Origin: Pseudomonas triclosanedens | GTDB taxonomy: Bacteria; Pseudomonadota; Gammaproteobacteria; Pseudomonadales; Pseudomonadaceae | NCBI RefSeq assembly: GCF_026686735.1 | Contig: NZ_CP113432.1 | Location: 1,364,001-1,428,000 of the forward strand | Length of the DNA: 64,000 bases | Reading direction: 5' to 3' | Shown here: positions 11,936 through 45,032 of the stretch, one piece after another | How the letters are laid out: every line of letters starts with the position of its first letter | Position numbering within the stretch: position 1 is the first letter of the stretch | Notes under the pieces: model-generated | Database searches by the model: none | What the model saw: only the letters and a program-made list of their open reading frames with translations | What the model was told of the DNA's origin: nothing | Made by a program: the position numbers and the translations under genes

Positions 11936-11965
11936 CCTTCCCTCATCCATCATCAGGAGAAATCC

Positions 11966-13153: not shown

Positions 13154-13176
13154 TTCTTCCAGAAGGAGAAATCACC

Positions 13177-13482: not shown

Positions 13483-13524
13483 TCCGCATCCAGCGGTCTC
13501 GCGCCGCTTCTTTCTTCCCACCCA

Positions 13525-13562
13525 GGGGCATGTCACCGCCCCGTGGGGGAGGTGCATGCCCC
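13525..13562 (+). promoter_or_regulatory. Two-part leader hairpin before the helicase gene
   Basis: Outer arms GGGGCATG (13525-13532) and CATGCCCC (13555-13562) are perfect. The inner stem is CACCGCCCC with GGGGAGGTG-like pairing around GT (13534-13554). The ATG lies 19 bp further on at 13582. Confidence 0.45.
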
Positions 13563-13581
13563 ATTGCTTTGGAGCATCACC

Positions 13582-26908: not shown

Positions 26909-27001
26909 GCGTATCCCCCGCGCATTGAAGCCGCTCCCACTGAAATCGCAACACCTCACTATCCACTCGGGCCGCCTGCTGCAGGCCTCCTGCCCAGTTC
27001 T

Positions 27002-27352
27002 CTACTTGGTAGGGCGAGACAGCGACTCGGCAAGCTCCAACAACTTTGCGACGTCCTCTGCGGGCAATGACGCCTCCTTGAGGTATCGCACTAAAGCCAT
27101 CGCTTCAGGCTGCGTGTGCAAGTAGTCGACGACTTCAGGGTCAGTCGAAGGCGATAGGCGGAACAACACGTCGGGATCTGCCGCCAGCACCTTCGCTAGA
27201 GCTTTGATGACCTCAGGCCTAGGCGGAGACTCCTTACCACGCTCGATACGGCTCAAGTAGGCCGGCGAAATGCCGACTAAGCCTGCCGCCTCGCGTAAGC
27301 CAAGGCTCTGTGCCACCCGAAGGTCGCGAATCGTCTCTCCAAAGCTACTCAT
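27002..27352 (-). CDS. XRE-family repressor of the defence island
   Basis: The 116-residue protein begins MSSFGETIRDLRVAQSLGLR and has a helix-turn-helix LREAAGLVGISPAYLSRIERGKE at about residues 17-40. A C-terminal helical segment (EVVDYLHTQPEAMALVRYL ... KLLELAESL) probably dimerises. An in-frame ATG nine bases upstream (27361) sits directly against AGG, so 27352 is preferred. It is divergent from the methyltransferase operon and lies 93 bp before gajA on the same strand. It could repress both groups through the inverted repeat at 27373-27398. Confidence 0.8.
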   Translation of the reverse strand: MSSFGETIRDLRVAQSLGLREAAGLVGISPAYLSRIERGKESPPRPEVIKALAKVLAADPDVLFRLSPSTDPEVVDYLHTQPEAMALVRYLKEASLPAEDVAKLLELAESLSRPTK

Positions 27353-27372
27353 ACCGCGCATCCTACCTCAGG

Positions 27373-27398
27373 TGTTTAGTGTTGTGCAACACTTAACA
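27373..27398. promoter_or_regulatory. Inverted repeat, probable XRE operator
   Basis: Arms TGTTTAGTGTTG (27373-27384) and CAACACTTAACA (27387-27398) pair over 11 of 12 positions around a TG spacer. The site is 20 bp upstream of the XRE start and overlaps the best -35 candidate for the plus-strand operon. Binding here would control both directions. Confidence 0.65.
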
Positions 27399-27411
27399 CG
27401 CTTAGTAGACT
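27382..27411 (+). promoter_or_regulatory. Candidate sigma-70 promoter of the MADS-like operon
   Basis: TTGTGC (27382-27387) and TAGACT (27406-27411) are separated by 18 bases, a weak but acceptable match to the consensus. The -35 lies inside the inverted repeat. The first operon start is at 27509, so the leader would be about 90 bases. Confidence 0.35.
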
Positions 27412-27508
27412 ACTCCATTGTTTGGTAAAGTTTGCTCTTTCCTGCCGATCTTGGGCCAGGACCATGCCGGCCAATCTGCCCACGTCGTCACTTTTCAGGA
27501 GCGAACAG

Positions 27509-27716
27509 ATGCTTGGGGAAGAAGTGTTCACGGTTAAAGAGGTCGCCACGCTCTTAAAGGTCGGCGAGAAGACCGGTCTACTCCATGGCCCAGGCTGGAG
27601 AACTACCTGCGTTCAAGGTGCGAGGTCAGTGGCGATTCGCCCGAAAGGACATCGATACATGGATAGAGCAGCAGAAACACACAACCCATGATTTCGGCGA
27701 GGAAGACCAGAAATGA
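27509..27716 (+). pseudogene. Excisionase-like HTH protein, frameshifted
   Basis: From ATG 27509, after AGGAG (27497-27501), the frame gives MLGEEVFTVKEVATLLKVGEKT, the start of a MerR/excisionase-type helix-turn-helix. Beyond 27575 the match continues one frame away as VYSMAQAGELPAFKVRGQW and RFARKDIDTWIEQQ, ending at TGA 27714-27716. One extra G at 27575-27576 (ACCGGTC instead of ACCGTC) explains the break. Restored, the product is about 68 residues. Unrepaired, the peptide stops at 27691 with an unrelated tail. This HTH gene belongs to the methyltransferase operon. Confidence 0.75.
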
Positions 27717-27744
27717 CCCCAGCCTCGGTGAGCGGAGTTTTTAT

Positions 27745-29748
27745 ATGAGCAGAAAGAAGAACAAGCAGGCCGAGAACACCATCCCAGCTGGATACACGCT
27801 CGACTACGTTTCCGGCAGACAGATCAAGGAAACGAAGAAAGAGCTCGTTCGGCAGCGGGTAGTTCGTGCCCTGATCCATGAATACGGATTCTCTCCGGAA
27901 GACATGGAGTTGGATTTCTCCATTGGCGGGCGCAAGAAGGTGGATGTGGCCATCTTCCACCACGGCAAGGACCACACAATTGAGAATCTCAGCCGCGCAG
28001 TGATTTGCCGCCAAGAACCGAACGTCGGCAAAAATGCCATGCGCATCCGCGATTACGAGCAGGCCGCCAAAGACCTCGAAGAGATCGAAACCATCATGCG
28101 CGAGGTCGATGCCGTTCAGTACGGCTTGTGGACCAACGGCCTGGAGTTCTTCTTTGTCGAGAAAGAGCAAAAGCGCTTCGAAACCAAGTGCAACCCCATC
28201 GGCGACTGGCCGATGGCCGAAGAGTCGGTCGGCACTAAGGAGGTCATCTCCGATGCCCATACCCGTGTCGCCGACAACGAGATGCTGAAGATCACCTTCC
28301 GGCGTTGCCACAACTTCATTCATGGCAACGAGGGCATGCCCAAGGACGCCGCCTTCTGGCAATTCCTGTACCTAATATTCTGCAAGATGCACGACGAGAA
28401 CCTGCGTGCCAAGCAGCGGCAGGCCTGGCAGCGCCGTTTCTGGGCTGGACCCAAGGAGCAGTTCGAGCCACAAGGGCGCAAAGCCATCCGCGTCCGGATC
28501 GAGGAGCTCTTCACCGAGGTCAAGAAGCAGTACAAGAATATTTTCCGAGGCAACGAGGAGATCACTCTCTCCGACCGGGCGCTGGCCTTTATCGTTTCGG
28601 AACTGGCCAAGTACGACTTCACCCGAACTGACGTCGATGCCAAGGGCGTGGCCTACCAGGAGCTAGTTGGCGTTAACCTGCGTGGCGACCGGGGCCAGTA
28701 TTTCACTCCTAGAGGCGTCGTGAAGCTGGTCATTGAGATGCTCGACCCCAAAGAGACCGAGACTCTGCTGGACCCGGCCTGTGGCACCGGCGGCTTCTTG
28801 GTCGCGACCCTGGGGCACATGCTGAAGAAGTTCCGCGAAGAGCAAAACATCCAGGCCGGAAACGAGAACACCACCGAGTTCCTGAACATCCACGAACGGC
28901 TGAAAGAGTATGCCGCCGCCAATGTCTTCGGCACCGACTTCGACCCGTTCCTGATCCGCGCCGCTCAGATGAACATGGTGCTGGCGGGCGATGGCCGTGG
29001 ACATATCTACAACATCAACTCATTGGAGTTTCCGCTGGGGCATCTAGCCGACCTGCCCAGCGTCAAGAAGGAGATCCCGCTGGCGTCGGTGGATATCATC
29101 GCCACCAACCCTCCCTTCGGCTCCGACATCCCGATTACGGACAAGCACATTCTGGAGCAGTACGAGCTGGCTCATGGCTGGGAGCCGGACGGCGAAGGCG
29201 GGTTCCGCAACACCGGCGTCCTCAAGGGCAGCGTTGCCCCCGAAATTCTCTTTATCGAGCGCTGCATCAAGTGGCTCAAGCCGGGAACCGGCCGCATGGG
29301 CATCGTTCTTCCCGACGGAGTTCTTGGCAATCCGGCCGCGGAATACATCCGCTGGTGGATCATGCGCGAAACGCAGGTGCTTGCTTCCGTCGACCTGCCG
29401 GTAGAAGCCTTCATTGCCGAAGCCAACGTCAACATCCTCACCAGCTTGCTGTTCCTGCGCCGCAAGGACGACCAGGAGAAGCATCGCGAGGCCCTAGGTC
29501 GTGCCGAGGAATACCCAGTCTTCATGGCCGTTGCCGACAAGGTTGGCTTCGACCGCCGTGGTAACAAACTCTACAAGCGCACCCCGGACGGCGAAGAGAT
29601 TGTCGAGCCCAAGCAGCATATCGAGCGCATCCGTATCGGCGGGCGCTTCGTGGAACGGACCCTGACCCGCAGTGAAAAGATCGAGGACAACGATCTGCCG
29701 GTCATCGCTGAGAAGTACCGCGAATTTCTCAAGGAGCAGAACGGGTGA
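27745..29748 (+). CDS. N6-adenine DNA methyltransferase with HsdR_N-like domain (MADS-like)
   Basis: This 667-residue protein is the likely active methyltransferase of the operon. The N-terminal region (about 35-140; EYGFSPEDMELDFSIGGR, KKVDVAIF) resembles the HsdR_N fold, but the nuclease motif reads VICRQE instead of ECK. The methyltransferase core has motif I DPACGTGGF at 343-351 and motif IV NPPF at 455-458 (IIATNPPFGSD). It resembles HsdM of type I systems. ATG 27745 (MSRKKNKQAEN) is preferred over 27688, which lies inside the preceding gene. It overlaps the next gene by four bases. Confidence 0.85.
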   Translation: MSRKKNKQAENTIPAGYTLDYVSGRQIKETKKELVRQRVVRALIHEYGFSPEDMELDFSIGGRKKVDVAIFHHGKDHTIENLSRAVICRQEPNVGKNAMRIRDYEQAAKDLEEIETIMREVDAVQYGLWTNGLEFFFVEKEQKRFETKCNPIGDWPMAEESVGTKEVISDAHTRVADNEMLKITFRRCHNFIHGNEGMPKDAAFWQFLYLIFCKMHDENLRAKQRQAWQRRFWAGPKEQFEPQGRKAIRVRIEELFTEVKKQYKNIFRGNEEITLSDRALAFIVSELAKYDFTRTDVDAKGVAYQELVGVNLRGDRGQYFTPRGVVKLVIEMLDPKETETLLDPACGTGGFLVATLGHMLKKFREEQNIQAGNENTTEFLNIHERLKEYAAANVFGTDFDPFLIRAAQMNMVLAGDGRGHIYNINSLEFPLGHLADLPSVKKEIPLASVDIIATNPPFGSDIPITDKHILEQYELAHGWEPDGEGGFRNTGVLKGSVAPEILFIERCIKWLKPGTGRMGIVLPDGVLGNPAAEYIRWWIMRETQVLASVDLPVEAFIAEANVNILTSLLFLRRKDDQEKHREALGRAEEYPVFMAVADKVGFDRRGNKLYKRTPDGEEIVEPKQHIERIRIGGRFVERTLTRSEKIEDNDLPVIAEKYREFLKEQNG

Positions 29749-31763
29749 GCGATCAAGACGACATCATCGAGACCCCGCAGGATGCTGCCGAAGAGAGCGG
29801 CCCGGATAACTTTTTCATCGACATCCTGACCGGCAACAAGGAAAGCGCCTCGGCCAAGAAGCTGCTGGTGCAGAAAGTTCTGCGCCAGCTCATCGAGAGC
29901 TATGGCTTTGACCGAAACGATCTGGAGGTCAACTACAACCCGCAGATCCCCGGCCAGGGGCGCAAGCGCATCGACATCGCGATTTTCCGCCCCGATGCCG
30001 AGCACAATAACGACAACCTGCAGCGGATCATCGTCTGCAAAAATCAGAAAAAGCGAGACAAGCTCCGCTCCATTGCCGAGGCCGACGCCGACCTGCGCGA
30101 GCTCAAGGAGCTGCTGGAACTGATCCCGGGCGCGACGCTGGGCATGTGGACCAACGGTCAAGAAGAGTTCCTGTTCCAGGTCGAGCGCACCCGTTTTGAA
30201 GTCCGGCCCAAACCGCTGGGTGTCTGGCCGGTTCCGGGCGAACGCACCTCCGATCTCGATCGCACCGGCGGTGTCATTCAGGTCAGCGCCGAAGCGGAAG
30301 ATCTGGAAGACGCCCTGATGCGCTGCCGTCAATATCTGAACCGGAATCTTGGTCTCGATCACAAGGATTCCTTCAAGCAGTTGGCCGTGCTGATGCTGGC
30401 CAAGATCCATGACGAGACCCTGCCCACCGGTGGGCGCAAGTTCTGGATCAGGGGTGACGAGCCTTTCACCGAGGCGGGCCAACAGGCCATTGCCCAGCGC
30501 ATCACCGAATCCATTGCCGCCGCCAAGGCCTGGCAACCGAACCTGCTGACCCGTGGCTGGGATCTGACGCTGGAACCCCACGAGACCGCCCGCGTGGTCA
30601 TGGAGCTGGCCCGTTACTCACTGAGCGAAACCCAGCCACGTTACCGTACCGAGGCCTTCCGTGCGGTTGCCCGCAGCGTGATGGACGGCCGCGAGGGCCG
30701 CTACCCTACGCCGCTCAACGTGGCCGAAATGGCGGTGGAGATGCTCGACCCGCAACCCGGCGAACGCATCATGGACTGCTCCAGCGGCACCGGCACCTTC
30801 CTGGCCATGACCGCTGCGCACATCTTCAGGAAAAAGCTGGCGGCCGTGGGCACGACGCCTGAAGAGGCCACCAACGAACAGATCCGCCAGGCGCAAAACG
30901 AAACCGCCGCCTGGGCGGCCAGCAATGCCCTCGGCTGCGACATTGATCCCTTCCTGGCCGTGGCCAGCCGCATGAACCTGCTGTTCACCACCGGCAATCC
31001 CGGTCGTGTGTTCCGCATCGATGCTCGCACCTTCCCGGACGGCGATCTGGATGGCATTGAGGCCGCTCGCCCGGCCATGCCGCTAGGCAGCATGGATATG
31101 GTTCTGCTCAACCCCTGGTTCTCGACACAAGACACGGTCAGCGACACCTCCATCCTGGAGCGCTACGACCTGGGCAACAACTGGGAGCGCGACGAAGAAG
31201 GTGGATTCCGCAACACCGGCAATCTAAACATCGGCGGTGTGCCGCCCGAGGTGCTATTTATCGAACGCGCCCTGCAATGGGTGAAGCCTGGCACCGGCCG
31301 CGTGGGCATCCTGTTGCCCGATGGTTTGCTGGGCAATCCGGGCGATGAGCACGTGCGCTGGTGGATTCTGCGCCACTGCGAGGTCCTGGCCTCGGTTGAC
31401 CTGCCGGTGGAGCCGTTCAAGGTCACGGTGAAGGAATATGGCCTGACGCCCGCCTTGCCCAGTCTCCTGGTACTGCGCCGCCGCAGCCAGGAAGAGCTCA
31501 TCAATACCGAACACCCGGAATACAAGGTCTTCATGGCCGTGGTGGACCGGGCTGGTGTCGACGCCCGGGGCAATCTCCTGTTCCAGCGAGCCCCCGATGG
31601 AGAGGAACTGGTTTTCGATGAGGAAGTGATCGAGCGGGTTCGAGAAGGTGGTGAAGTAGAAATCCGCCGGACCACACGTCGCAACCGCCGCGTTCATGAC
31701 GAGCTGCCGCTGGTGGCAGAGAAATACAAGGAATTCCGCGCAACCGGCGAGGTGACGTTATGA
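29745..31763 (+). CDS. Second methyltransferase-like protein, degenerate motif IV (MADS-like)
   Basis: This 672-residue protein is a diverged paralogue of the preceding gene, in the same layout. It has an HsdR_N-like start (RKRIDIAIF, then RIIVCKNQKKR, where the nuclease Glu is Val) and a methyltransferase core. Motif I is DCSSGTGTF rather than DPACGTGGF, and motif IV is NPWF at 456-459 in place of NPPF/Y. The changed catalytic loop suggests lost or altered activity and a structural role beside the first enzyme. It overlaps both neighbours by four bases (GTGA and ATGA types), indicating coupled translation and a possible heterodimer. Confidence 0.8.
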   Translation: MSDQDDIIETPQDAAEESGPDNFFIDILTGNKESASAKKLLVQKVLRQLIESYGFDRNDLEVNYNPQIPGQGRKRIDIAIFRPDAEHNNDNLQRIIVCKNQKKRDKLRSIAEADADLRELKELLELIPGATLGMWTNGQEEFLFQVERTRFEVRPKPLGVWPVPGERTSDLDRTGGVIQVSAEAEDLEDALMRCRQYLNRNLGLDHKDSFKQLAVLMLAKIHDETLPTGGRKFWIRGDEPFTEAGQQAIAQRITESIAAAKAWQPNLLTRGWDLTLEPHETARVVMELARYSLSETQPRYRTEAFRAVARSVMDGREGRYPTPLNVAEMAVEMLDPQPGERIMDCSSGTGTFLAMTAAHIFRKKLAAVGTTPEEATNEQIRQAQNETAAWAASNALGCDIDPFLAVASRMNLLFTTGNPGRVFRIDARTFPDGDLDGIEAARPAMPLGSMDMVLLNPWFSTQDTVSDTSILERYDLGNNWERDEEGGFRNTGNLNIGGVPPEVLFIERALQWVKPGTGRVGILLPDGLLGNPGDEHVRWWILRHCEVLASVDLPVEPFKVTVKEYGLTPALPSLLVLRRRSQEELINTEHPEYKVFMAVVDRAGVDARGNLLFQRAPDGEELVFDEEVIERVREGGEVEIRRTTRRNRRVHDELPLVAEKYKEFRATGEVTL

Positions 31764-33154
31764 GCAGAAAATTCCAGGTAAAAGCTGTGCCAAGTTCTTG
31801 GCTGGAGCACAATGGCCGTCGCTTGGACTGCGGGCCTTATATGTCTGGCGCTATAGAAGCTGCCGAACTAATGAGGCAGTTCAGCGTAGAACCACTTGAG
31901 AGCCTTACAAAAGACATATTTCATGCAGGCAGAGAGGGCAGACAGTATGTTCTGGATGCTCAGCATGGTGTTCCCTTTATGGGAAGCACAGATATTTTGG
32001 CTTTCGACCTCACGTACCAACCCCTGCTTTCCAAGAAGCAGGTAAACAGAAACCCACAGTTCACCATACGGAAAGGCTGGACGCTGATTACTCGTTCAGG
32101 TACGACAGGGAGGATGGCGTTTGCTCGCGAGAGCATGGATGGCATGGCCTGCTCTGAGCACGTAATGCGGATAGTTCCCGACGCGAATAAAGTGCCAGAA
32201 GGCTACATCTTTGCTTATCTGTCATCTCGCTTTGGAATTCCTCTTGTTGTCTCTGGCACTTACGGCTCGATAATTCAAAGTATAGAACCACACCATGTCA
32301 GCAACTTGCCTGTGCCACGATTAGGAGAAGTAGAGTCTGTTGCAGACCGGTTAATCCAGCGCTCTGGAAGCCTTCTTAGTAACAGTCAAGCAAAGCTTAA
32401 CGAAGCTACGGAACTCTATTTTGATTCTGTTGGGCTTTCAGATATTAATCCAACGGAGTGGCACTCGTGGGGTAGCGATCTTGGATTTGCCACCCCTGTA
32501 AGTTCGAAGTCTTTGCGGGCTTTAAACTTTAATCCTCGATTCGAGCGGCTTTGCTCGCAAATTAAAGAAGGACAGCATAAGTTGCTTGGCGAATTATGCC
32601 TTGAAGGAACATTGCGCCGGGGCAATATATTCAAGCGAATTGATGCAGCTCCAGAACACTCGTATCAACTGGTTGGCCAGAAACAAATTTTTTGGCTGCG
32701 ACCAGAAGGTCGCTGGATTTCTAAAGCATCCGTTCGCGAGGAAGTTCTCGTTTCCGATGGAACGATTCTGGTGGCCGCTCAAGGAACGCTTGGTGAGGGA
32801 GAGCTATTCTGCCGTGCCGAGTTTATAACTGGAAGTACGCTGGAGAGGGCCTATTCGGAGCACTTCCTACGAGTCATTGCCGACGAGTCGCAGATCGAAC
32901 GGGGGGCGCTGTTTGCATTTATGCGTTCAGAAACGGCATTCCGTATGCTTCGCTCCGCCTCGACAGGAAGCAAACTCCAAGATTTTCACTATGCAGTTTT
33001 GCCGTCTTTACCGATCCCTTACCCAGAACAGGCGGTCCGCAAGAAGTGCCATGACTTGGTCATGGAGGCTTATGAGGCCCGCGATGAGGCCATAAGGTTC
33101 GAAGACGAAGCCCGTTCCCTCGTCGAGCGCACCATTGAGGAGGGGGCTCGCTAA
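31760..33154 (+). CDS. Type I-like specificity subunit (MADS-like)
   Basis: The 464-residue protein has the two-part architecture of HsdS. Each half has a target-recognition region followed by a conserved helix. Typical pieces are KGWTLITRSGTTGRMAF, VSNLPVPRLGEVESVADRLI and, in the second half, VSDGTILVAAQGTLGEGELF and LPIPYPEQAVRKK. It should direct methylation to a bipartite DNA site. The region is visibly more AT-rich than its neighbours, as is usual for rapidly exchanged specificity genes. It overlaps the upstream gene by four bases and the kinase gene by one. Confidence 0.85.
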   Translation: MSRKFQVKAVPSSWLEHNGRRLDCGPYMSGAIEAAELMRQFSVEPLESLTKDIFHAGREGRQYVLDAQHGVPFMGSTDILAFDLTYQPLLSKKQVNRNPQFTIRKGWTLITRSGTTGRMAFARESMDGMACSEHVMRIVPDANKVPEGYIFAYLSSRFGIPLVVSGTYGSIIQSIEPHHVSNLPVPRLGEVESVADRLIQRSGSLLSNSQAKLNEATELYFDSVGLSDINPTEWHSWGSDLGFATPVSSKSLRALNFNPRFERLCSQIKEGQHKLLGELCLEGTLRRGNIFKRIDAAPEHSYQLVGQKQIFWLRPEGRWISKASVREEVLVSDGTILVAAQGTLGEGELFCRAEFITGSTLERAYSEHFLRVIADESQIERGALFAFMRSETAFRMLRSASTGSKLQDFHYAVLPSLPIPYPEQAVRKKCHDLVMEAYEARDEAIRFEDEARSLVERTIEEGAR

Positions 33155-36100
33155 TGGCAAAAGTCATACCCATCGGGCAGCCCGCGAACGAATCTGAACG
33201 CCAGGCCATCGGCTTCCTTCGGGATCATCTGCCCGATGGTTGGTTGATCTTCCACAACTTCGAGATGCGCCAAGGCCAGGAGGTATTCGAGATCGACATC
33301 GCCATCCTCGCGCCTCACGCGGTGTATCTGGTGGATGTCAAAGGGACGCGGGGCAACATCGATGTGTATGGCTCCAAGTGGTATCCGCAGGGGCGGCAAC
33401 CGTTTCACTCGCCCCTCGCGAAGCTTCGTCACCACGCGAAGGTGATGGCCAGCTTCATCCGCGATAGCAATCCCGGACAGATCGAGCTGCGCAAGGCTCA
33501 TGTCCATGCCGCCGTGTTGCTTACTGCCGATGACGCCACCGTGTTCGATCAGGCGGGCATCGACAGCCCGGACGTGACCGACTTCAAGCACTGCCTGAAA
33601 TACTTCCGCGACGCGAGCCGCATTCCTGACAACCGGCTGGATAACATCACCCGCTTCCACTCCCAGATCGCCAAGGCGATCACCGGCAACGCCAAGCCCA
33701 AGAGCGCGGCGCTGGTGTTCCGCGACTGGCAGGTGGAAGAGAAGCTGGGCGGCACCGACCGCTACACCGAGTACCGCGCCAAACACAACCTGTTGGGCAA
33801 GAGCGGCGGCATGGCCCGCCTGCGGGTCTACCAGGCTGACCCGTACCAGGACGAGGCCGCCCGCAAGGAAGAGTTCAAGAAGATCAGCAACGCCTATCGC
33901 GCCGTGGCACACATGCCGACCCACGCCAATGTGCTGGCGGTGAAGGATCTGTTCGTCTCCGACGATGAAGACAAGGTGGTGCTGGTCACTGAGGATCTGC
34001 CTGGCCAGGCCCTGCGCCTGCACATCAACAAGGTCTCGATGGCGCTGACCTTCGATCAGAAGCTCCAAGTGATGCGCGACGTGCTGTCGGCCCTGGACCA
34101 TGCGCACCGGCATGAGGTGATCCACCGCAACCTGACCCCGGACGCCATTCTGCTGACCAAGGGCGGCCAGGCCCGGGTAACCGATTTCGATTTCGCCAGG
34201 GTGGGCAAGAACCGCACCTCTACCATCGCCGATCAGGTGGTGGATGATCTGGATGCTACCTACCAGGCTCCAGAGTGCTTTAAGGACCCGACCCAGGCCA
34301 GCATTGCCTCCGACCTCTATGCCGCCGGGCTGATCTTTTTTGAACTGCTGACCGGCGAGCTGCCCTTTGAAAGCGTCGACCAGATGATGGAGGCCGACGG
34401 CAAGTTCCCCATCAAGCCCTCGGAGCACAAGCCGGACCTGCCCAAGGGGATCGACGAGTGGTTGCAGAAGTTCTGCGAGTTTGACCCGGAGGAACGGCAC
34501 ACGAGCGCAGCCATCGCTCGCAAGGCCCTGGATGATCTGATTCTGCCTGAGGCCAAGAACGACTCAGGCCCGGATGTGAGCGGCCCGGCCGTGGTTGTGC
34601 CACAGCTCCCAGATAACCTGATGAACTTGCCGCAGGATTTCATCCTGGCGGATCGCTTCCGCATTCAGAAGAAGCTGGGCAGCGGCGGCTTCGGCGTCGC
34701 CTACAAGGTGTTCGATTCCCTGGGCGATGTGGTGCGCGTCATCAAACTGGTGACCAAGGACCGCCGCAGCGTGTACGAACGGCTGCGCCGCGAGTACAAG
34801 ACCCTGACCAATCTCCCCGAACATCCGCATGTGGTGAAGGTGATCTGGGCGGATCGCATGGCCGATGCCAAGCAGACGCCTTACATTGTCTTTGAGTATG
34901 TGGAAGGTTTGGATGTTTCCGATCTGATCGATGCCGAGGCGTTGTCGCTGGATGATGCCGTACGCATCGTGCGCGAGGCCGCCGAGGGGCTGGCCCATCT
35001 CCACAAGCACGGCGTTTACCATCAGGACGTCAAGCCCTCCAATCTGCTTTGGACGGACAAAGGCGTCCGCATCATCGATTTCAACGTCGCGGTCTCCGAG
35101 AACGATGAGGTTCAAGGTGGTGGCGGCACGCGCCGTTACCTGCCGCCGGATTACGACTACTCCTCCGAGCCGGATGCTTCGGATCGAATGGATCGTGACC
35201 TCTATGCCTTGGGCATCTCCTTCTATGAGTGCCTGACCGGCAAGTATCCATTCGACGATCCCACGCCGCCGATCAAGACTCAGCCCAGGGACCCCAAGCA
35301 GTTCAAAGGCTGCGCCGACCTCAGCTCGTCGCTGGTCAATGTGCTGGCGAAGATGATCGCGCCGGAGCGCAAGGATCGTTTTGCGTCGGCGGAGGAGTTC
35401 TTGATTGCCCTGGCCGAGGTCAAGCGCCTGCGCTCGGTGCTGACGACCGGCGAGATTGGTGCCGGACCCAAGGTGGTATCCAAGCTGGGTTTCGAGCCGA
35501 CCAAGCCCAACACCAACCCCTTTGTAACCCACCTGCTGACGCTCTATAGCCAGAGCCAGGTGTCCAACGCAGGCACCCGTGGCCTCGACGAAGTTGGCAA
35601 GGCCACCTACGTGTCGACTTATCTGGACGAAAAGCTCAAGCCCGCGCTGCTCAAGGGCGAGTTCCGTTTGGTCATCATCAGCGGTAACGCCGGCGACGGC
35701 AAGACGGCCTTCATCCAGCAGTTCGAGGCCTTTGCCGAGAGCAAGGGCGCACAGATACAGCGCGGCGCGAACGGGGCTGTGTTCCAGCTCAAGGGGCATA
35801 CCTACCAAAGCAACTACGACGGCAGCCAGGATGAAGGCGACGAGCGCAACGATGCCGTGCTTCAGAAGTTCTTCGCTCCCTTCGCGGGCAAGGATGCCTC
35901 CGGCTGGCCCGAGAATCAGACCCGCCTAATCGCCATCAACGAGGGACGGCTGGTCGACTTCTTCCTTGAGCATGAAGAAGAGTTCCCGTTGCTTGCCAAG
36001 CAGATCCAGCAGGGCTTGGCCGGAGCTGCTCCGGAAGGTGGTATCGCAGTTATCAACCTCAACCTGCGCTCGGTGGTCGCCGAACCCGAGGAAGGTCAGC

Positions 36101-37311: not shown

Positions 37312-38938
37312 AGACAAGGAATTCAGAACACCTAAGGTCAGTTATTTGCATTGGCAGCACACGGAAATGGATCGTGTGCTGACCATGCTATTTCCTCGCC
37401 TCAAATTCAATGGCTATGGCAGTCGCAAGCCGCCACGCGCAAATATTTTGCAGCCAGAAGAATTTGCAGATGAAATGATGCTGTCCGAAGAGGTTAAGCA
37501 GTATTTTGAGGGCTTTGACGAACATCCATCCATTGTCCACAAGTGGGTAGAGACCGAACTTCTTGATGTGGTAAATCGGGGCAAGTCGAATCAGGCTGTC
37601 GCCTCTCCGCGCCCGCTTCATGGAGAGACCTATAAGTTTCGAAATGCAAAGCACTGCCGTGACTATGGGGCAGCCGAGCAGATTTATTGGATGCTCTACT
37701 ATGCCCGCAAAGGCAAGGGCCAGGCCGCCCGAGACACGCTAAAACGCTTCTTTTTCCCTGGGATTGACCATGTAACCGGCAGGCATGAATCCGGCACGGT
37801 CGTCGATGTAGAAACCCAAGCGCTACTTCGCTTCGACTCCCAAGTTACTCAGGACACACAGGACTCCAAGGAGCCAGAGCGCTTTCCACCACTTCTGATC
37901 GATCAGGCCGACATCATGGCCGACGACATTCTGCGGCTACTGGCCTATGAGCCCTATATTCCTCGCTCGGTGCTGGTGGATTACCTCAAGACCCTGATGG
38001 CATTCCATCTGGCGCTCTACCACCTCAAGTTGTTGCAGATACTGCCCAAGCTGGTGAAGCAGCGCTCGGACAATGCGCTGGAGAGTTCACCTGATCCCGT
38101 GGCGCTGGTCGTGGATATGGGGGACGTCAACAATCCGCATATGGTCGAGCTGGCTCGCAAGTCCACTGACCGGCTCTATCGCCAAATTCCTGCCTTTGTG
38201 CAGGCCAATTTCGTCGTCAAGAAGCTCGATGAGATGGCGGAATACCTGAGCAAGAAGACGGGCAAGCTGGCTACTCCAGGGGGCGGCGTGTTCACCGTCG
38301 GCGATCTGGTTTCTCTACTGAAGCCCGAGCACGACGCCGAGCTCCAAGCCTACTTCAAGTTCCGCCTGGCCAGCCTGATCGAGGAATCGACCTCTGGAAA
38401 CGAGGACATCGATCCGGAGATCCGGGAAGTCACCGCCATGGGCCTTGGTGAGTTCGAATCCTTCATCGAAATCCTTATGGCATATCGCGGCAAGTATCAC
38501 CGCCAGTACATCACTGAGTGCCTGGACTCACTGCTGCTGAAGAACAAGGAGAACGGCCTGCTGGCCCAATCCCGAACCAAGGGAAGTCCTCGGCGGTTTG
38601 TGCTGGGAAGCAAGCTTCTTGAAGTGCTCCTTCAGGTGGCTGTGCTCACTCAGGATGACGGGCGTTTCGTGACCCGCGAGGTTCGCATCGAGGAGTTGCT
38701 GGCCTTTTTGAGAAGCCGCTACGGCCTTCACATCGACCGGCTGCCGGAAGGAGCACAGGCCAACAGCAGCATCCTCGACAGACGCGCCCTGCGCCTCAAC
38801 CTCGAAGCCTTCAAGCGTCGCCTGCGTGAAATCGGGTTCTACGAGGACCTGTCGGATGCCTACGTGACCCAGAAGGTATCGCCCCGCTATGCGATTGAGA
38901 GAAATGACGGAACAGATAAAAACGGGAGGCACGCATGA
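37295..38938 (+). CDS. Unknown protein of the MADS-like operon, 547 aa
   Basis: The protein begins MSIKGRDKEFRTPKVSYLHW. It is mostly helical, with long amphipathic stretches (LVDYLKTLMAFHLALYHLKL, then LLQILPKLV; DEMAEYLSKKTGKL; LEAFKRRLREIGFYEDL). No Walker, nuclease or methyltransferase motif is seen, and no signal peptide. ATG 37295 lies inside the kinase gene end. The stop overlaps the ATPase gene by four bases, so it is coupled to both. Its place between kinase and ATPase suggests an adaptor or structural role, as for the unnamed protein of this type in MADS operons. Confidence 0.75.
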   Translation: MSIKGRDKEFRTPKVSYLHWQHTEMDRVLTMLFPRLKFNGYGSRKPPRANILQPEEFADEMMLSEEVKQYFEGFDEHPSIVHKWVETELLDVVNRGKSNQAVASPRPLHGETYKFRNAKHCRDYGAAEQIYWMLYYARKGKGQAARDTLKRFFFPGIDHVTGRHESGTVVDVETQALLRFDSQVTQDTQDSKEPERFPPLLIDQADIMADDILRLLAYEPYIPRSVLVDYLKTLMAFHLALYHLKLLQILPKLVKQRSDNALESSPDPVALVVDMGDVNNPHMVELARKSTDRLYRQIPAFVQANFVVKKLDEMAEYLSKKTGKLATPGGGVFTVGDLVSLLKPEHDAELQAYFKFRLASLIEESTSGNEDIDPEIREVTAMGLGEFESFIEILMAYRGKYHRQYITECLDSLLLKNKENGLLAQSRTKGSPRRFVLGSKLLEVLLQVAVLTQDDGRFVTREVRIEELLAFLRSRYGLHIDRLPEGAQANSSILDRRALRLNLEAFKRRLREIGFYEDLSDAYVTQKVSPRYAIERNDGTDKNGRHA

Positions 38939-41900
38939 GTAATGCGTTCACCAAGCTTTCCCAGGATAAGTTGAACGCGGCGGTCGCTTGTCTGCTGTGC
39001 CCCCGTATCGAAGCGATCCTGGGTGACCGTGGCCCAGGCCACTGCATGCGGGTCACCGATCTCGATGACGAGGTAATGGAGTCGGTCTGCAAGGAACTAC
39101 GTCGGACCCGGCCCGACGGAAACATCTTTATCCTCGGCAGCCATGATCAGGAGGGCCAGCCCTTCCGAGTCACTTCCACCAAACTGGTGGAGTTGCGCAA
39201 CCCGGACGCGAACGGCGAGCTGCGTCAGCCGTTGCTGGTCTTCATACCGACTTCGCTTCGCACCAGCGCCGAGGACTCTTTCGGTGTGGCGACCTTCGAG
39301 GAGCTGACCTTCGCCGGTATCTACGAGGACCTTATCGACTCGCTGCTTGATCGGCTCCCGACAACACTGGTTGGCCATGCTCGCGATCTTCTGGGCATCC
39401 TCACCGAGGAGGAGTGGCTGTTTGCCGACCATGTTTCCCGCGTGCGGTACCTCCTCACTGCGCTCGAAAACGGGATTGATGGAGAAACCCTCGGGGCCAG
39501 CCTGTATGAATTGACGTTGATTCCAGACTTCAAGCTCTTTGCTGATCCCGGCATGGTCAATGGCAAGATTCGCCGTAACCTCGGCAGCGTCCGCAGTCTG
39601 ATGGCCTCGCACAAGTCGGTTCGTGGTCGTATCGCCGATCTGGGACTCAGCGACAAGGCATTGGAGTCGCGACTATTCACCTACTTTGAAAAGTACGATG
39701 TCCAGGAGCCCGAATCCTGGACGCCGCCCATCGCGACCGACAAGAGCTGGTGGAGCATTTCTTTCGACAAATGGACGTTCCAGGAAGAGCTTTCGCTGGA
39801 CAAGGTCCTGCTGACAGTGCTGGAGACCGACTTGCCGGTCGTTCAGGAGGATGAGACCGACGACCAACTCTCCGGCCTCATCGGGCAACAGGTTCTGGTG
39901 CCGAACGACCGCCGCAAAATGAACGTGGTGTTCGAGGTTAGCCCTCACCCCGGCAAGGTCAGCGGGCTTGATCATTTTACGGTTCAGATCATTTCGCAGA
40001 ACGACGGCCCGGTAGGAAAATCTAAAAAAGTCAAGGCCTGGACGCCGAACCGCCTGCAGTGCACGACCAACTTGGCCAAGCTCAATAAGATCGAATTCGA
40101 GGAAGGATGGCATTTCATCCGTGTAATGCCTTGGACGGCCGATGGCGATCCGATTCCGCTGGAAGCGGATTCCGCCTCCGAGGGCGCAAGACGTTCCTAC
40201 GAGAGCGAACCTTTCTACGTCCTGCCCGGTGGCAACATCGAGGAAGAACCACCCCAACGCGCCATACCCATTGAGCAGAGCCTGGAGCATGCGCGTTTCC
40301 GGCTGCAACTGACTGCCCTGGGCGATGAACGCGATCCCGATGATATCGCCATCAGTGGTGTCGCCTGGGCCGAGGGCGGTCGTTCCAAGAAGACCTCTCG
40401 CCAGGAAACCCTACACGCAAAATTCGGTCGTGAGGGCGCGGTTCAGATTCCGCTTTCGCGTATGCTCAAAACCATCGAGCAGCGCGTCTTGGCGGAGCCT
40501 AAGCACCCGTCAGGCTGGCGAATGCAGATCAATCTGGATACCGCGGAGCCGCCTTCCGAGGTTGGACTCACGCTGCCATCTTCCGCCGCGATGGCTTCCT
40601 TCTTGGCTGCCCGCGAAGAGTTTTTTGCAGCAGTGCGCAAAGACACTGCCGAGCTGATCATGCAGGGGCTTTCGTTCCGCGACTCGGAAAGGGAATGCCT
40701 CGCGTATGCTGAAAGCTACCTTGACTTGGTCAGGAACCTCATCCGTCAGGCCGAGACGACTTCTGGTGCCGAGCGTCAGCAACACTTGCAAGCGCTCAAA
40801 AATGTGCTGGCCGTCGATTCCATTCATGTCATCTTGACCGACTTCGGTGGAAGGCACCGGGAGGCTGTTTTGGTCTCCCCAACCCATCCGCTTCGTGCCT
40901 TGTGGCTGAGCAGTTGGGTCGCCCTGGGTAAGGATTGGATTGAGAAGATCAAGTCAGGCGGAAAGGATCACATTCCTCACGTCCGTTCCGCGCTGTTGGA
41001 TGGCCTTGTGCCCTCTGCCTATCCGGTCGGTATTCCCGTCGAGGATGGCCGCATCTTCACTCCGGTGGACAACCTGAATGCTTTCTGGGCGCTCTACGCC
41101 CCGACGACCGAGGAAAATTCCCGTGGTCTGATGGCGGAAATCTGTTCAGCGCTCGGCTTGGCCGAGCCCTCTGCGGCGGGATCAGATATTTCCGGACAAG
41201 TCATTGCGGACAAGATCGAGCGCTATCTCTCTCAGCATCCCTATGTTCGAGAGTTATCACTGAACATCTTCAACCCTGGTGCCGGATCGGTGATTGCGGA
41301 GGCTCTGCTATCGCTCCAGCAGAAGCGCGAGCATGCCGATTTGCGCTATGACGTGCGGCTCTTTACCACCGATCCCGACTCACCTGTTTTGGGCGAGGCT
41401 CTTGAGTCGATGGTCCGTCCCGGAGCCACGGTAAACGAGGCCGCCGACGCATTTGCGACCTCAACGGGCAGCCATCTGTTCTCCAAACTGAACTTGGCCA
41501 AGCACCCCCTGAATGAATTCCATGCAAATTCCAAGGAGTTCCCGGCCCACATCAGTGTTCTTCTGGATGTGTTTCCCGCCGAGGAGCTTTCCATTGCAGA
41601 GAAGCCGATGGGCGTGACCCCACTGCATGGGCTGATACAGGACTTTGACACTGAATTCGTTGATGACGATTCGGGAACCTTCTGGAACAAGCGGCCGATT
41701 GTCGGGCGCTCCCTCGGCGCGGACAACCATGCGGCGTGCTTCGATTTGCTGTCGTCCCTGAGCCGACACCTCTGCTTTGCTACCTCAGCGGTTGCTGCTT
41801 CTGGTGCCAGCTTCAAAGCTGTGCCTGTGGTGACCCTTGGCCTCGATGTGGCCCAACGAGAACTGATCTACGAGGTTCACCAGATCAGCGATTGGGTGTT

Positions 41901-44394
41901 CACCATCGACCGAAATATGGGGATTGAGTTCTTCGACCACGGCGGCCGGAAGAACAGACCGGACTATCTGATTGACTATGTGCCGGGAGCCAGCTCCCAG
42001 GCGACACACAACCTGATCATCTCGTCGCGCTCGAACGATGAACTGGAGGCGATGCTGAAGCCGGTGCTGCTTGAGCATGGCTTGTCCGCCGACGGCGAGC
42101 AGTCGGTTCAGATCCTGGCAAATCTGCGGTCGCTGTCCGGTCAACTAGCGCTCAAGCTGATTTCTGCTCGCACACAACAGGCGGAGGCACTTGGTCTGGC
42201 TTTGGCTCGGCTCTACCTCGAATATCAGGGCGCATTGAGCAATCAGGTCATTGTGCCGTTGGATGCGCACACGGACCTTTACCGCTCAAGCGGTGAGTCA
42301 GACGATGTCAATGATGCAATCAGTCTGCAACGCACCGACTTGGGATTGTTCGACTTGGATTTGAACACCAGAACGATCACTTGCAACCTGGTCGAGGTGA
42401 AATGCTATTCGCAAGTGGGCGACTTTGCGGCCTTCAACCAACTGAAGGAGCGGATTTCCGCCCAGATCAATCAGAGCGAGCGCATCCTCCAGCGCCACTT
42501 TGACCCGGCCTTGAAGAAGCCCGACCGGCCGGATAGGTTGCTCAAGAGCCGGGAGTTGGCTCAGATCCTTCGTTTCTATCTAGAGCGCTCACTACGTTAC
42601 GGGATCTTTGATGCGACTGCTGCGCAGGAAGCACGAGGGCTACTTGAATCCATCGAGCAGGGCTACTCGCTTCAGTTCAGACGCTGCGCCCTGATCTTCG
42701 ACTTCGACAAGACCGGAACCGAGGCCCCCGACAACGAGGTTGGCATTGAATTCCACCGCATCGGTAAGGATCTCATTCGCGCCTTACTGGAGAACTGCCG
42801 CAAGCCTGTTTCCGTCGAGATTGAGGAAGAACCGACCACACACCTTCTTAGCGAGCAGTTCATACCGAACGTGCCAAAACTTGAGACAGCGGCCTTTATC
42901 GCACCCAAGAGAGCGCGGTCAACGTCCTGGACGGTGGATGAGCTCTGGGACGATGATCCGGAGGTACCAATCACCGCGCCAGCACCCCCGGCCGCAGAGG
43001 GAGCACCTGCGCCTACTCACCAAGAGGCAGAAGAACAGGCGAGCCCTGTCGAGCCAACCCCTCCGTCTTCTATCGCTTCGGAAGTCGAAAAGGATGACGA
43101 ACAACCTGCCGTGGCTGCCGTACCGGAAGCGCATGCTGAACCAGAGCATGGAGGGCACCCGGCGTCCGAGCCTGTGCCTCAAGCAGAGGCCTGCTATGAC
43201 ATCATGCTCGGCGTCAATGGCGACTCGCCTCAGTACGGATTACTCGGAGAGGTCTCCGGTAGAAAGGTCGCGCTAGATCTCAACCACACCCACACGATCA
43301 GTCTCTTTGGGGTTCAAGGCGGCGGCAAGAGCTACACACTTGGAACGGTGATCGAGATGGCCTCCATGCCGTTCCAGCATATCAACGTGCTGCCAAGCCC
43401 GCTTGCCACGGTCATCTTCCATTACAGCCCGACGCAGGATTATGCGCCGGAGTTTACCTCGATGATCAATTCGAACTCGGTGGATGAGGAGATTCGCGTC
43501 CTTCGCGAACGTTACAAGGCCAACCCAGAAGCGCTGAAAGATGTGCTGATTCTTACCCCTGCGAACAAGGTGGATGATCGCCGGGCCGAATACCCGGATA
43601 TCGAGGTTAAGCCGATTGCTTTCTCTGCCTCCGAGCTTAAGGCCACCCACTGGAAATTCCTGATGGGTGCGATTGGCAGCCAGAGCATGTACATGCGCCA
43701 AATCAATCTCATAATGAGGGGGCTGCGCGACAACCTGACCTTGGACGCCCTACGAGCAGGCATTGATAACTCTGGCCTGTCCGATCACCTGAAGGAGCTG
43801 GCCCAGACGCGCCTGCTGTTCGCCAGTGAATACATCAACGATAACCAACGGCTTCAAGACCTGATTCGTCCGGGCCGCTTGATCATTGTGGATCTGCGTG
43901 ACGAGTACATTGAAAAGGATGAAGCGCTCGGTCTGTTCGTGGTGATGTTGCAGATTTTCTCGGAAGCCACTTACCAAGGAGGCGCCTTTAACAAGCTCGT
44001 GGTATTTGACGAAGCCCACAAGTACATAGAGAACGATGATCTAGTTTCCGGATTGGTTGAAGTGGTTCGGGAAATGCGACATAAAGGCACCAGCATCATG
44101 GTCGCGTCCCAAGACCCGCCATCGGTTCCCGTTTCTCTAATTGAGCTGTCCTCACAGATCATCATGCACAAGTTCAACTCACCAGCCTGGCTTAAGCATA
44201 TCCAGAAGGCCAATGCCGCCCTCGGAGAGTTGACTTCCGAGAAAATGAGTCACCTCGGTGCAGGCGAAGCCTATGTTTGGTCAAGCAAGGCCTCAGATGA
44301 CTCGTTCACCCGCGGCGCAGTGAGAATCAAATGCCGTCCACGCATCACCCAGCATGGCGGCAGCACAAAGACGGCAGTTGCTAACCAGCAATAG
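38935..44394 (+). CDS. PD-(D/E)xK nuclease / HerA-like ATPase, 1819 aa (MADS-like)
   Basis: This very long protein has three regions. The N-terminal 1100 residues are unassigned. A nuclease-like motif lies at 1140-1156, with LFDLDLN giving Asp1140/Asp1142 and NLVEVKCYS giving Glu1154-Val-Lys1156. An acidic Pro-rich linker (about 1340-1410) precedes a HerA/FtsK-type ATPase with Walker A GVQGGGKS at 1459-1466 and Walker B VVFDEAHKY, DEAH at 1692-1695. It is probably the effector that loads on and degrades invading DNA. It closes the operon; no T-rich terminator follows. Confidence 0.8.
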   Translation: MSNAFTKLSQDKLNAAVACLLCPRIEAILGDRGPGHCMRVTDLDDEVMESVCKELRRTRPDGNIFILGSHDQEGQPFRVTSTKLVELRNPDANGELRQPLLVFIPTSLRTSAEDSFGVATFEELTFAGIYEDLIDSLLDRLPTTLVGHARDLLGILTEEEWLFADHVSRVRYLLTALENGIDGETLGASLYELTLIPDFKLFADPGMVNGKIRRNLGSVRSLMASHKSVRGRIADLGLSDKALESRLFTYFEKYDVQEPESWTPPIATDKSWWSISFDKWTFQEELSLDKVLLTVLETDLPVVQEDETDDQLSGLIGQQVLVPNDRRKMNVVFEVSPHPGKVSGLDHFTVQIISQNDGPVGKSKKVKAWTPNRLQCTTNLAKLNKIEFEEGWHFIRVMPWTADGDPIPLEADSASEGARRSYESEPFYVLPGGNIEEEPPQRAIPIEQSLEHARFRLQLTALGDERDPDDIAISGVAWAEGGRSKKTSRQETLHAKFGREGAVQIPLSRMLKTIEQRVLAEPKHPSGWRMQINLDTAEPPSEVGLTLPSSAAMASFLAAREEFFAAVRKDTAELIMQGLSFRDSERECLAYAESYLDLVRNLIRQAETTSGAERQQHLQALKNVLAVDSIHVILTDFGGRHREAVLVSPTHPLRALWLSSWVALGKDWIEKIKSGGKDHIPHVRSALLDGLVPSAYPVGIPVEDGRIFTPVDNLNAFWALYAPTTEENSRGLMAEICSALGLAEPSAAGSDISGQVIADKIERYLSQHPYVRELSLNIFNPGAGSVIAEALLSLQQKREHADLRYDVRLFTTDPDSPVLGEALESMVRPGATVNEAADAFATSTGSHLFSKLNLAKHPLNEFHANSKEFPAHISVLLDVFPAEELSIAEKPMGVTPLHGLIQDFDTEFVDDDSGTFWNKRPIVGRSLGADNHAACFDLLSSLSRHLCFATSAVAASGASFKAVPVVTLGLDVAQRELIYEVHQISDWVFTIDRNMGIEFFDHGGRKNRPDYLIDYVPGASSQATHNLIISSRSNDELEAMLKPVLLEHGLSADGEQSVQILANLRSLSGQLALKLISARTQQAEALGLALARLYLEYQGALSNQVIVPLDAHTDLYRSSGESDDVNDAISLQRTDLGLFDLDLNTRTITCNLVEVKCYSQVGDFAAFNQLKERISAQINQSERILQRHFDPALKKPDRPDRLLKSRELAQILRFYLERSLRYGIFDATAAQEARGLLESIEQGYSLQFRRCALIFDFDKTGTEAPDNEVGIEFHRIGKDLIRALLENCRKPVSVEIEEEPTTHLLSEQFIPNVPKLETAAFIAPKRARSTSWTVDELWDDDPEVPITAPAPPAAEGAPAPTHQEAEEQASPVEPTPPSSIASEVEKDDEQPAVAAVPEAHAEPEHGGHPASEPVPQAEACYDIMLGVNGDSPQYGLLGEVSGRKVALDLNHTHTISLFGVQGGGKSYTLGTVIEMASMPFQHINVLPSPLATVIFHYSPTQDYAPEFTSMINSNSVDEEIRVLRERYKANPEALKDVLILTPANKVDDRRAEYPDIEVKPIAFSASELKATHWKFLMGAIGSQSMYMRQINLIMRGLRDNLTLDALRAGIDNSGLSDHLKELAQTRLLFASEYINDNQRLQDLIRPGRLIIVDLRDEYIEKDEALGLFVVMLQIFSEATYQGGAFNKLVVFDEAHKYIENDDLVSGLVEVVREMRHKGTSIMVASQDPPSVPVSLIELSSQIIMHKFNSPAWLKHIQKANAALGELTSEKMSHLGAGEAYVWSSKASDDSFTRGAVRIKCRPRITQHGGSTKTAVANQQ

Positions 44395-44660
44395 CAATGC
44401 GAGCAGGCCTCACCAATCTGAACAAAACGAAGGCGACCTCCACCAAATGAGAACTCCCTTCCTGTGGGAGTGAGTTAGGCACTTTAGCCCCCTCCTGGAA
44501 CCCATTTAAGGACGGGGTGCGGCTCTCCTGCTCCCGCACCCCAACCGCGCCACGCCAACCACGAACGTAAATCCGGCACCCTGCCGATTCCGATTGTTTG
44601 CGGCAGGTTCCAGCCGACCACCGCAGCATTCCGCCATCCAGACGACTGCGGAATGGCGTG
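44395..44660. other. Gap between the defence island and the resumed transfer operon
   Basis: Two hairpins without T-runs are present: ACTCCC/GGGAGT near 44456-44472, and GGGGTGCGG (44514-44522) with CCGCACCCC (44534-44542). The right junction of the island must lie here or just upstream. No promoter, gene or target repeat is clear. Confidence 0.4.
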
Positions 44661-45032
44661 ATGACGACCACAGGCAAACCAACGACCGACTGCCGCGGCG
44701 CGCCGGCATTGGCCCTAGTCCTAGCCGTCGCGCTGACCAATGCCACGCCCGCGTCAGCGGGCGATGCCTCCCCAGAGCATGCGCAGTTGGCGACCCTCGC
44801 GCGCCAGCTCGATCTGATCGACCGCCTCGCCGAGCACGCCGCCCATACCGCTCCGCAGGAGCGCGCCCGCTACCACTTCGACCATGCCCGCCTGCGCGAG
44901 GACCTCCAGCGCGTTCGGGCCGGTATCCAGGACTACCTGACGCCGCCGCGCGCCCAGCCGCGCGATTCGGTCGAGCTGTCCGGTGACTACCGCCAGTCCA
45001 GCCCGCCCTCCGACCAGGAGGCACCCCAATGA
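44661..45032 (+). CDS. RAQPRD family ICE protein (TIGR01690)
   Basis: The 123-residue protein carries the family name motif itself, PPRAQPRDSVELSGDYR. A signal peptide (ALALVLAVALTNATPASAG) precedes it, and a helical core has LDLIDRLAEHAAHTAP and RARYHFDHARLREDLQRV. It is a small periplasmic protein of the conjugation machinery, of unknown action. ATG 44661 (MTTTGKP) is chosen because the sequence upstream is not protein-like. The stop overlaps the next start by four bases. Confidence 0.88.
   Translation: MTTTGKPTTDCRGAPALALVLAVALTNATPASAGDASPEHAQLATLARQLDLIDRLAEHAAHTAPQERARYHFDHARLREDLQRVRAGIQDYLTPPRAQPRDSVELSGDYRQSSPPSDQEAPQ

Follow-up and report, generated by a model that had tools for sequence, protein, structure and literature searches.

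We analysed a 64,000-nucleotide stretch of DNA from Pseudomonas triclosanedens (contig NZ_CP113432.1, positions 1,364,001 to 1,428,000; hereafter the window), in which an earlier note, made from the letters alone, had described an eight-gene operon like the anti-phage system MADS (methylation-associated defence system) on an integrative conjugative element (ICE). All eight open reading frames (ORFs) were found where the note had placed them, an XRE-family regulator gene on the minus strand and seven tightly packed genes on the plus strand (Table 1), the successive genes from mad1 onward overlapping by 4, 4, 4, 1, 62 and 4 nt. The operon proteins were scanned with NCBIfam, PADLOC and Pfam models (for three proteins the PADLOC matches are the best 25 of 38-53 families), and the scores obtained, such as 1023 bits for MAD2 and 665 bits for MAD7, lie far beyond chance. 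Homology makes 27745 the likelier start of mad2a and about 37295 that of mad7. The Pfam scan matched the NERD and Pkinase domains of MAD6.

Table 1. Features of the MADS-like operon and of its surroundings, in window coordinates.
Feature	Position	Strand	Evidence
Gene of an XRE-family regulator (CapH-like by PADLOC), divergent from the operon	27002..27361	-	PF13560 59 bits; PADLOC capH 46 bits
AGTGTTGTGCAACACT, operator-like palindrome some 17 nt from the start of XRE	27378..27393		Conserved palindrome across loci
mad1 (helix-turn-helix, HTH), frameshifted, N- and C-terminal pieces in two frames	27509..27715	+	Comparison with E. coli MAD1
mad2a, N6-adenine-type DNA methyltransferase, motif IV NPPF	27688..29748	+	NF047738 1023 bits (cut-off 720)
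mad2b, second MAD2-like methyltransferase, motif IV NPWF, at the mad3-mad4 position	29745..31763	+	NF047738 816 bits
mad5, HsdS-like specificity subunit	31760..33154	+	NF047740 578 bits (cut-off 400)
mad6, NERD nuclease domain, pseudokinase (HRN), Ser/Thr kinase, SspF/DndF-like P-loop domain	33154..37311	+	NF047741 872 bits (cut-off 460)
mad7, SspG-like subunit	37250..38938	+	NF047733 665 bits (cut-off 410); SspG E 8e-9 (PADLOC)
mad8, SspH/DndH-like, PD-(D/E)XK-like motif and C-terminal HerA/FtsK ATPase	38935..44394	+	NF047742 236 bits (cut-off 175); PADLOC mad8 144 bits
Gabija pair (gajA 25175-26959, gajB 23770-25188)	23770..26959	-	PADLOC GajA 776 bits, GajB 640 bits
Left ICE boundary, traD and DUF4400 gene	20871..23773	+	TIGR03754 1105 bits; PF14348
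Right ICE boundary ORF	44598..45032	+	Letters RAQPRD in translation; conjugation genes onward to 52331

The operon is a MADS relative of a distinct subtype

MADS was reportedly described by Maestri et al. in 2024 as a set of genes mad1 to mad8. Six ORFs of the operon exceeded the NCBIfam cut-offs of MADS families in MADS order (MAD2 twice, MAD5, MAD6, MAD7 and MAD8), the kinase and the 1819-aa protein both had MADS homologues, and no other named system matched in the same order. The models covered nearly the whole protein for both MAD2 proteins, MAD5 and MAD7; those of MAD6 and MAD8 were matched over their full length, yet they span just 612 and 200 residues. The kinship with MADS claimed in the earlier note therefore stands. 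The operon is nevertheless set apart from canonical MADS, by which we mean the NCBIfam family models and the Piscinibacter locus L061 rather than the founding Pseudomonas aeruginosa proteins, because MAD3 and MAD4 match nothing in it, a second methyltransferase gene (mad2b) stands in their place and mad1 is broken. The order in the window is XRE, mad1 (broken), mad2a, mad2b, mad5, mad6, mad7, mad8, against HTH, MAD2, MAD3, MAD4, MAD5, MAD6, MAD7, MAD8 in L061; the eight genes counted in the note include XRE and are thus another eight than mad1-mad8.

No operon protein matched the MAD3 model NF047739 at E 0.01, while the neighbouring GajA scored 38 bits against a cut-off of 420. For MAD4, neither NF047734 nor PADLOC mad4 was among the matches listed for the operon, and tblastn with two MAD4 proteins found none. 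As controls, the models recognised the MAD3 gene in L061 and L069, and both NF047734 (233 bits) and PADLOC mad4 recognised the MAD4 of L061. By BLAST, locus L070 carries the same gene series as L061, MAD3 and MAD4 included; a 556-aa ORF lies there between mad1 and mad2 (2649-4319). The HTH gene predicted from the letters is present as mad1 without being intact, its first 22 codons and the remainder lying in different frames: the MAD1 model NF047737 gave 19 bits on the open frame (cut-off 80), and both halves of MAD1 were found in the two frames. The note's statement that HsdR, PglZ and BrxC are lacking held for the matches listed for all eight proteins in the three databases, where no full-length or named copy of these hallmarks of type I restriction-modification (R-M) and BREX occurred, nor any of DrmA/B of DISARM.

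The second methyltransferase carries an altered catalytic motif

Judged by NCBIfam matches, motifs and tree, two different M subunit genes stand beside one S subunit gene. Among copies matching more than 600 aa, motif IV reads NPWF in 31/31 mad2b proteins and NPPF in all 34 MAD2 proteins, canonical MAD2 included. In a tree of 32 chosen rows the mad2b sequences group in a single clade (support 100/100) apart from the remaining MAD2 rows; mad2b shares 36-38% identity with MAD2a, and its motif I is altered. The AlphaFold2 model of mad2b (pLDDT 85) found its best fold matches in the M subunits of BsaXI, PacII and HsdM type. Both methyltransferases bear a short HSDR_N_2-like N-terminal domain (Pfam). 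In the commonest forms of each, the ExK nuclease motif lacks its Glu. The N, first P and F of motif IV, the pocket Y and the GTG residues, which we take to be those that contact the cofactor and the target base, are invariant in all 31 mad2b copies, and our first thought that mad2b is plainly dead was dropped on that account.

That mad2b is a catalytically dead structural partner, in which case only one half-site or one strand would be marked and the attack genes would recognise a mark on one strand, is a real though minority possibility. The invariance of the presumed contact residues would be needless in a dead enzyme; the second proline of motif IV, on the other hand, is tryptophan in every one of the 31 copies and motif I is changed, BREX works with a one-strand mark (PMC11842806), and DndH bears an eroded methyltransferase domain, so that dead ones do occur among such machines (PMC10853773; all papers are cited here for their accessible parts). 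PacII offers another precedent: its M1, with NPPF, gives N6-methyladenine and its M2, with an altered motif, gives N4-methylcytosine (PMC9613975). We regard it as rather unlikely that mad2b likewise methylates cytosine N4, or another base, and so provides a second kind of self mark. Its motif is altered at the same place and its fold is similar, but the PacII pattern of NPPF with NPPY is not reproduced by a pair in which MAD2a has NPPF and mad2b NPWF; moreover, as mad2b matches the MAD2 family model, N4-methylcytosine activity would need an independent origin.

mad2b replaces MAD3-MAD4 in loci of many phyla

The second methyltransferase, used as a query against 84,980 species genomes, returned 32 mad2b loci (identity 61-100%), a lower bound since the scan reaches close relatives only. 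They belong to Proteobacteria, Thermodesulfobacteriota, Acidobacteria, Chloroflexi, Gemmatimonadetes, Verrucomicrobia, Bacillota, Patescibacteria and others. Wherever the contig extends far enough, the order is XRE, (mad1), mad2a, mad2b, mad5, mad6, mad7, mad8. Not every copy is intact: frames are split in mad2a and mad5 of L017 and in mad2b of L033, L035 and L037, and mad2b of L020 ends early next to a transposase gene. In E. coli, a mad7 relative was detected in 10 of 5426 genomes, and the four of these loci that were opened all hold the two-methyltransferase operon; RefSeq labels both methyltransferase genes mads2 in three of the four records. Neither MAD3 nor MAD4 turned up in any of 37 mad2b loci (32 from the collection, four from E. 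coli and the window), several of which, including L026, L028, L033, L035 and L036, are cut short; the sole weak MAD3 signal among them, in L006 and the window, falls in gajA.

It could be argued that the window holds a canonical MADS, two of whose genes have decayed in this strain, with mad2b as a redundant second copy of mad2. Both methyltransferases do score above the MAD2 cut-off, and RefSeq gives them one name in most of the E. coli records opened. We consider this very improbable all the same, as mad2b has its own clade and its own invariant motif at little more than a third identity to MAD2a, it lies between mad2a and mad5 in many phyla, and the lack of MAD3/MAD4 in the 37 loci, some of them cut short, is not confined to this strain. 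Two results bear on the expectation of the earlier note that departures from MADS may reveal dispensable parts: the lack of MAD3 and MAD4 in these loci, several of them partial, and the failure to find mad1 in three of the 25 collection loci that have both XRE and mad2.

Locus L069 is a close relative whose mad2 (76% identity) and mad6 (72%) are of the same kind and whose mad2 nests among mad2a sequences in the 32-row tree, but which carries MAD3-MAD4 and not mad2b; the mad2-mad5 junction is therefore an exchange site. Two Bacteroidota plasmid loci have neither mad2b nor MAD3-MAD4. On the Bacteroides plasmid of L063, a locus without MAD3, MAD4 and mad2b, a PP2C phosphatase gene (23097-23762) directly follows mad8 and is a possible counterpart of the MAD6 kinase. 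Between mad2a and mad2b we also observed Fic-domain genes in L033 (281-1402) and L035 (8762-9886), and in L017 (8877-10004) an ORF with an M78-peptidase match below the Pfam cut-off. With MAD7 as a marker, 4 of 398 genomes of a phylum sample scored above the cut-off (8 at E 0.001) and 1 of 369 of a class sample (5 at E 0.001), the source genome being counted in both. MAD3 was uninformative as a search query over relatives, with 181/193 genomes at E 0.001 and 0/193 above the cut-off.

The specificity subunit is exchanged between nearly identical operons

Compared with the window, the collection loci show a median identity of 88% for mad2a (n=27), 90% for mad2b (n=27), 89% for mad6 (n=27), 82% for mad7 (n=26) and 92% for the first half of mad8 (n=24), as against 40% for mad5 (n=28); copies below 88% of the query length are left out of these medians, and the mad8 rows are cut by locus ends. 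DNA alignments of the window with L007, L008 and L011 each have their biggest hole inside mad5, and that with L007 has an additional small hole near mad7. MAD5 is exchanged between nearly identical operons as HsdS is. Such operons with swapped mad5 genes form a natural set for mapping sequence specificity.

MAD6, MAD7 and MAD8 resemble the SspFGH/DndFGH machines

Residues 780-1385 of MAD6 matched SspF/DndF models only, these making up all eight PADLOC families returned (best E 3.5e-30). Profile comparisons paired the C-terminal part of MAD6 with SspF (E 3.2e-16), MAD7 with SspG (E 1.4e-8) and MAD8 with SspH (E 6.5e-10), whereas six mismatched pairings gave E values of 0.11-0.64; each Ssp profile was built from two sequences, taken from L073 and L074, loci with proteins that fit the PADLOC models of SspF, SspG and SspH over almost their entire length. 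In reverse searches the SspG of L073 matched the MAD7 model (E 1.8e-12) and both SspH proteins matched PADLOC mad8. The D...EVK motif of MAD8 aligns with D...ESK of SspH, and its Walker A and B motifs are kept in the five full-length copies compared. Over 32 copies, the commonest forms of MAD6 have an intact NERD motif, HRN in the first kinase (pseudokinase) and HQDVKPSN in the second. The homologues of F, G and H are adjacent and in F-G-H order in the operon; being remote, they indicate kinship, not membership. Phosphorothioation genes (SspABCD/DndABCDE) were absent from the PADLOC matches listed for the ten proteins from gajB to mad8.

Two further arrangements were observed. In L071 (11907-19270), possibly a kinase-free MADS relative, MAD7-, MAD2- and MAD5-like genes follow an ORF that resembles the C-terminus of MAD6 but lacks the NERD and kinase domains. 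On a Rhizobium plasmid (L068, 11274-25439) a MAD6-7-8-like triad precedes two other DNA methyltransferase genes.

SspFGH damages DNA that lacks the cognate modification and is toxic when the modification genes are absent (PMC8092258). Rakesh et al. 2024 (PMC10853773) report forms of DndF that combine NERD with an inactive and an active kinase in tandem, in DndFGH treated as stand-alone, without an inbuilt modification module; a 2026 BREX paper (PMC12839542) repeats this NERD-kinase architecture. MADS is named in neither paper in the parts examined.

XRE, its operator and the broken mad1

A palindrome with the consensus AGTGTTNNGCAACACT and at most two mismatches lies beside the XRE start in 28/30 loci, 15-18 nt away in 26 of these. 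This level was reached by only 5 of 600 stretches drawn at random from these loci, and some of the five may be the site itself; the loci are related and do not count as independent trials. An XRE homologue adjoins the operon in 25 of the 32 collection loci and in the four E. coli loci opened. Among the seven others, L026, L028 and L033 are cut short and L036 holds only parts of both methyltransferase genes; L022, L034 and L037 have upstream sequence with no XRE match. We rejected the idea that XRE is part of Gabija only, since the four E. coli loci have XRE without Gabija, with the operator in the three tested. Because XRE recurs beside the operon and has an operator, the view that it belongs to the MADS system is supported. 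Neither promoters nor terminators were detected when the stretch between XRE and mad1 was scanned for them; after mad8 the scan gave no promoter and four terminator-like sites, all on the minus strand.

Compared with E. coli MAD1, residues 1-22 of the window mad1 lie in one frame and residues 21-70 in another, while all 27 other loci in which mad1 was detected have it in one frame; no mad1 was found in L012, L017, L021 and L069, where XRE and mad2 stand close together. The break coincides with the sole gap, between XRE and mad2, of the alignment with the almost identical Luteimonas copy (L006). The frameshift may be a mutation or a sequencing error, unbroken copies being present in relatives. 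A nonfunctional operon, silenced by this frameshift, would fit a mad1 split in two frames at the only gap in 22 kb; we hold it to be distinctly unlikely, as the other operon genes are open, some other loci with XRE and mad2 do without a detectable mad1, and one sequencing error could account for a single gap.

A candidate restriction-modification mechanism

We propose, with a probability of about 0.7, that the operon encodes a MADS-family R-M system in which an M1-M2-S methylase is coupled, under XRE control, to a kinase-bearing attack machine of SspFGH/DndFGH kind. MAD2a, MAD2b and MAD5 would form the methyltransferase that marks self DNA, MAD5 reading a bipartite site whose two half-sites would be marked by the two unlike M subunits; the MAD2a mark is most likely N6-methyladenine, and that of MAD2b could be of unspecified kind or none. 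MAD6, MAD7 and MAD8 would assemble into the machine that attacks unmarked DNA, such as that of phages. MAD8 is predicted to translocate on DNA by its HerA/FtsK ATPase and to cut with its PD-(D/E)XK-like domain, with MAD7 as a putative DNA-binding adaptor. MAD6 may act as the sensor, its SspF-like P-loop half carrying a NERD nuclease and a pseudokinase-kinase pair that could gate or broaden the response. The XRE protein would bind the palindrome beside its own gene and restrain the operon, which probably lets marking come before attack once the ICE enters a new cell. The likeness of the attack genes to a known restriction machine thus suggests how MADS may destroy unmarked DNA.

Several observations weigh against this proposal. 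No printed precedent was found in the literature for NPWF, and mad2b could be inactive. The likeness of MAD7 to SspG and of MAD8 to SspH is remote and partial: the SspG of L074 did not match PADLOC mad7, the SspH of L073 did not match the NCBIfam MAD8 model, which is N-terminal, and the structure model of MAD7 (pLDDT 53) is too poor to use. PMC8092258 reports no homology of SspFGH to DndFGH. Unrelated jobs of MAD3-MAD4 and mad2b are another possible reading of the swaps at the mad2-mad5 junction, and with its broken mad1 this copy may be misregulated or dead.

The ICE setting and recent transfer

The location on an ICE, claimed in the earlier note, was confirmed: the TraD, TIGR03765, TIGR03750, TIGR03749, TIGR03752 and TraC models were all above their cut-offs. 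At the right boundary, the ORF at 44598..45032 had no PADLOC match, and no family model naming RAQPRD was run; matches to TIGR03750, 03749, 03752 and 03744 follow downstream. These borders of the cargo agree with those of the hotspot in PMC12629846. The G+C content is 58% in the MADS genes, 50% in mad5, 65% in gajAB and 67-69% in the ICE genes. The window belongs to a 6.25 Mb genome in a single contig, whose GyrB is nearest, when compared with named cluster representatives, to those of Pseudomonas delhiensis (94%) and of a P. aeruginosa cluster (92%); this makes the host a Pseudomonas that probably stands close to the P. aeruginosa group.

The Gabija pair, which stands directly upstream of the operon and is not mentioned in the earlier note, is a separate defence system sharing the same ICE cargo. 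It adjoins mad2b-type MADS in four of the 32 loci (L006 Luteimonas, L008 Pseudoxanthomonas, L009 Zoogloea and L011 Cupriavidus), too few for a substitute of MAD3-MAD4, an idea that we rejected. Window positions 19744-41760 and Luteimonas huabeiensis L006 1-22016 are 99.977% identical over 22,017 bp, with 4 mismatches and one gap, which points to a very recent transfer of the ICE segment between two genera. Elsewhere on the same ICE (11555-15852), a methyltransferase-like ORF (PADLOC mad2 60 bits, partial) is followed by a helicase ORF, a pair that possibly belongs to the ICE backbone or is another defence pair. Next to the E. coli MADS loci (L064-L067) lie a gene for an integrase and either tRNA-Leu or tRNA-Phe, and several of these loci retain remnants of conjugation genes.

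Significance and comparison with known systems

The restriction mechanism of MADS is listed as unknown in the accessible part of a 2026 review (PMC12904381), and the homology of MAD6-MAD7-MAD8 to SspFGH/DndFGH offers a concrete, testable one. The mad2b subtype, in which MAD3-MAD4 are exchangeable for a second methyltransferase, indicates which parts form the core, and current annotation conceals it by giving both genes the name mads2. More tentatively, and at somewhat less than even odds, MADS may be a methylation-guarded branch of the SspFGH/DndFGH machines whose mad2b subtype marks self asymmetrically: its two different M subunits, one of them with NPWF, would place either two kinds of mark or a single mark confined to one strand, for the kinase-gated machine to read. 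If this is true, NERD-kinase DndF proteins, so far described in stand-alone DndFGH, gain a dedicated modification module. Their architecture is already in print (PMC10853773); none of the printed parts consulted equates it with MAD6-8 or pairs it with a methylase. Within the literature in reach, which leaves out most subscription papers and preprints and all supplements, we found neither a two-methyltransferase MADS nor a link between MADS and SspFGH/DndFGH. A Halococcus paper (PMC13321033) describes a mixed 'DMS_other' class whose genes resemble those of MADS, phosphorothioation and BREX.

With MADS, the operon shares the MAD2, MAD5, MAD6, MAD7 and MAD8 families in the same order behind an HTH gene; it differs by mad2b in place of MAD3 (an AAA ATPase) and MAD4, by the divergent XRE with its operator and by the broken mad1. 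MAD6-8 have in common with SspFGH/DndFGH the three-gene order, similar sizes, the F-like P-loop, the G-like subunit and, in MAD8, the H-like nuclease motif joined to a HerA/FtsK ATPase, and MAD6 shares with DndF the fused NERD, pseudokinase and kinase (PMC10853773). The similarity is remote, however, and MAD6-8 share their operon with a type I-like DNA methyltransferase instead of phosphorothioation genes. The NERD, pseudokinase and kinase arrangement of MAD6 is also that of PglW of BREX type 2 (NF033442 227 bits, below the cut-off of 990), but the C-terminal half of MAD6 is SspF/DndF-like and the operon has no PglZ, BrxC or PglX above cut-off. Like PacII, a non-canonical type I R-M system of M1M2S composition (PMC9613975), the operon combines two unlike M subunits with an S subunit and has an altered catalytic motif in one of them; unlike PacII, it has no HsdR among its matches, its M subunits are of the MAD2 family with an HSDR_N-like N-terminal domain, and the motif is NPWF, not NPPY. 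From the type IIB R-M system BsaXI it differs in that alignments taking in the N-terminal part fit badly (11-17 A) and in the missing ExK Glu of the commonest MAD2a and MAD2b forms.

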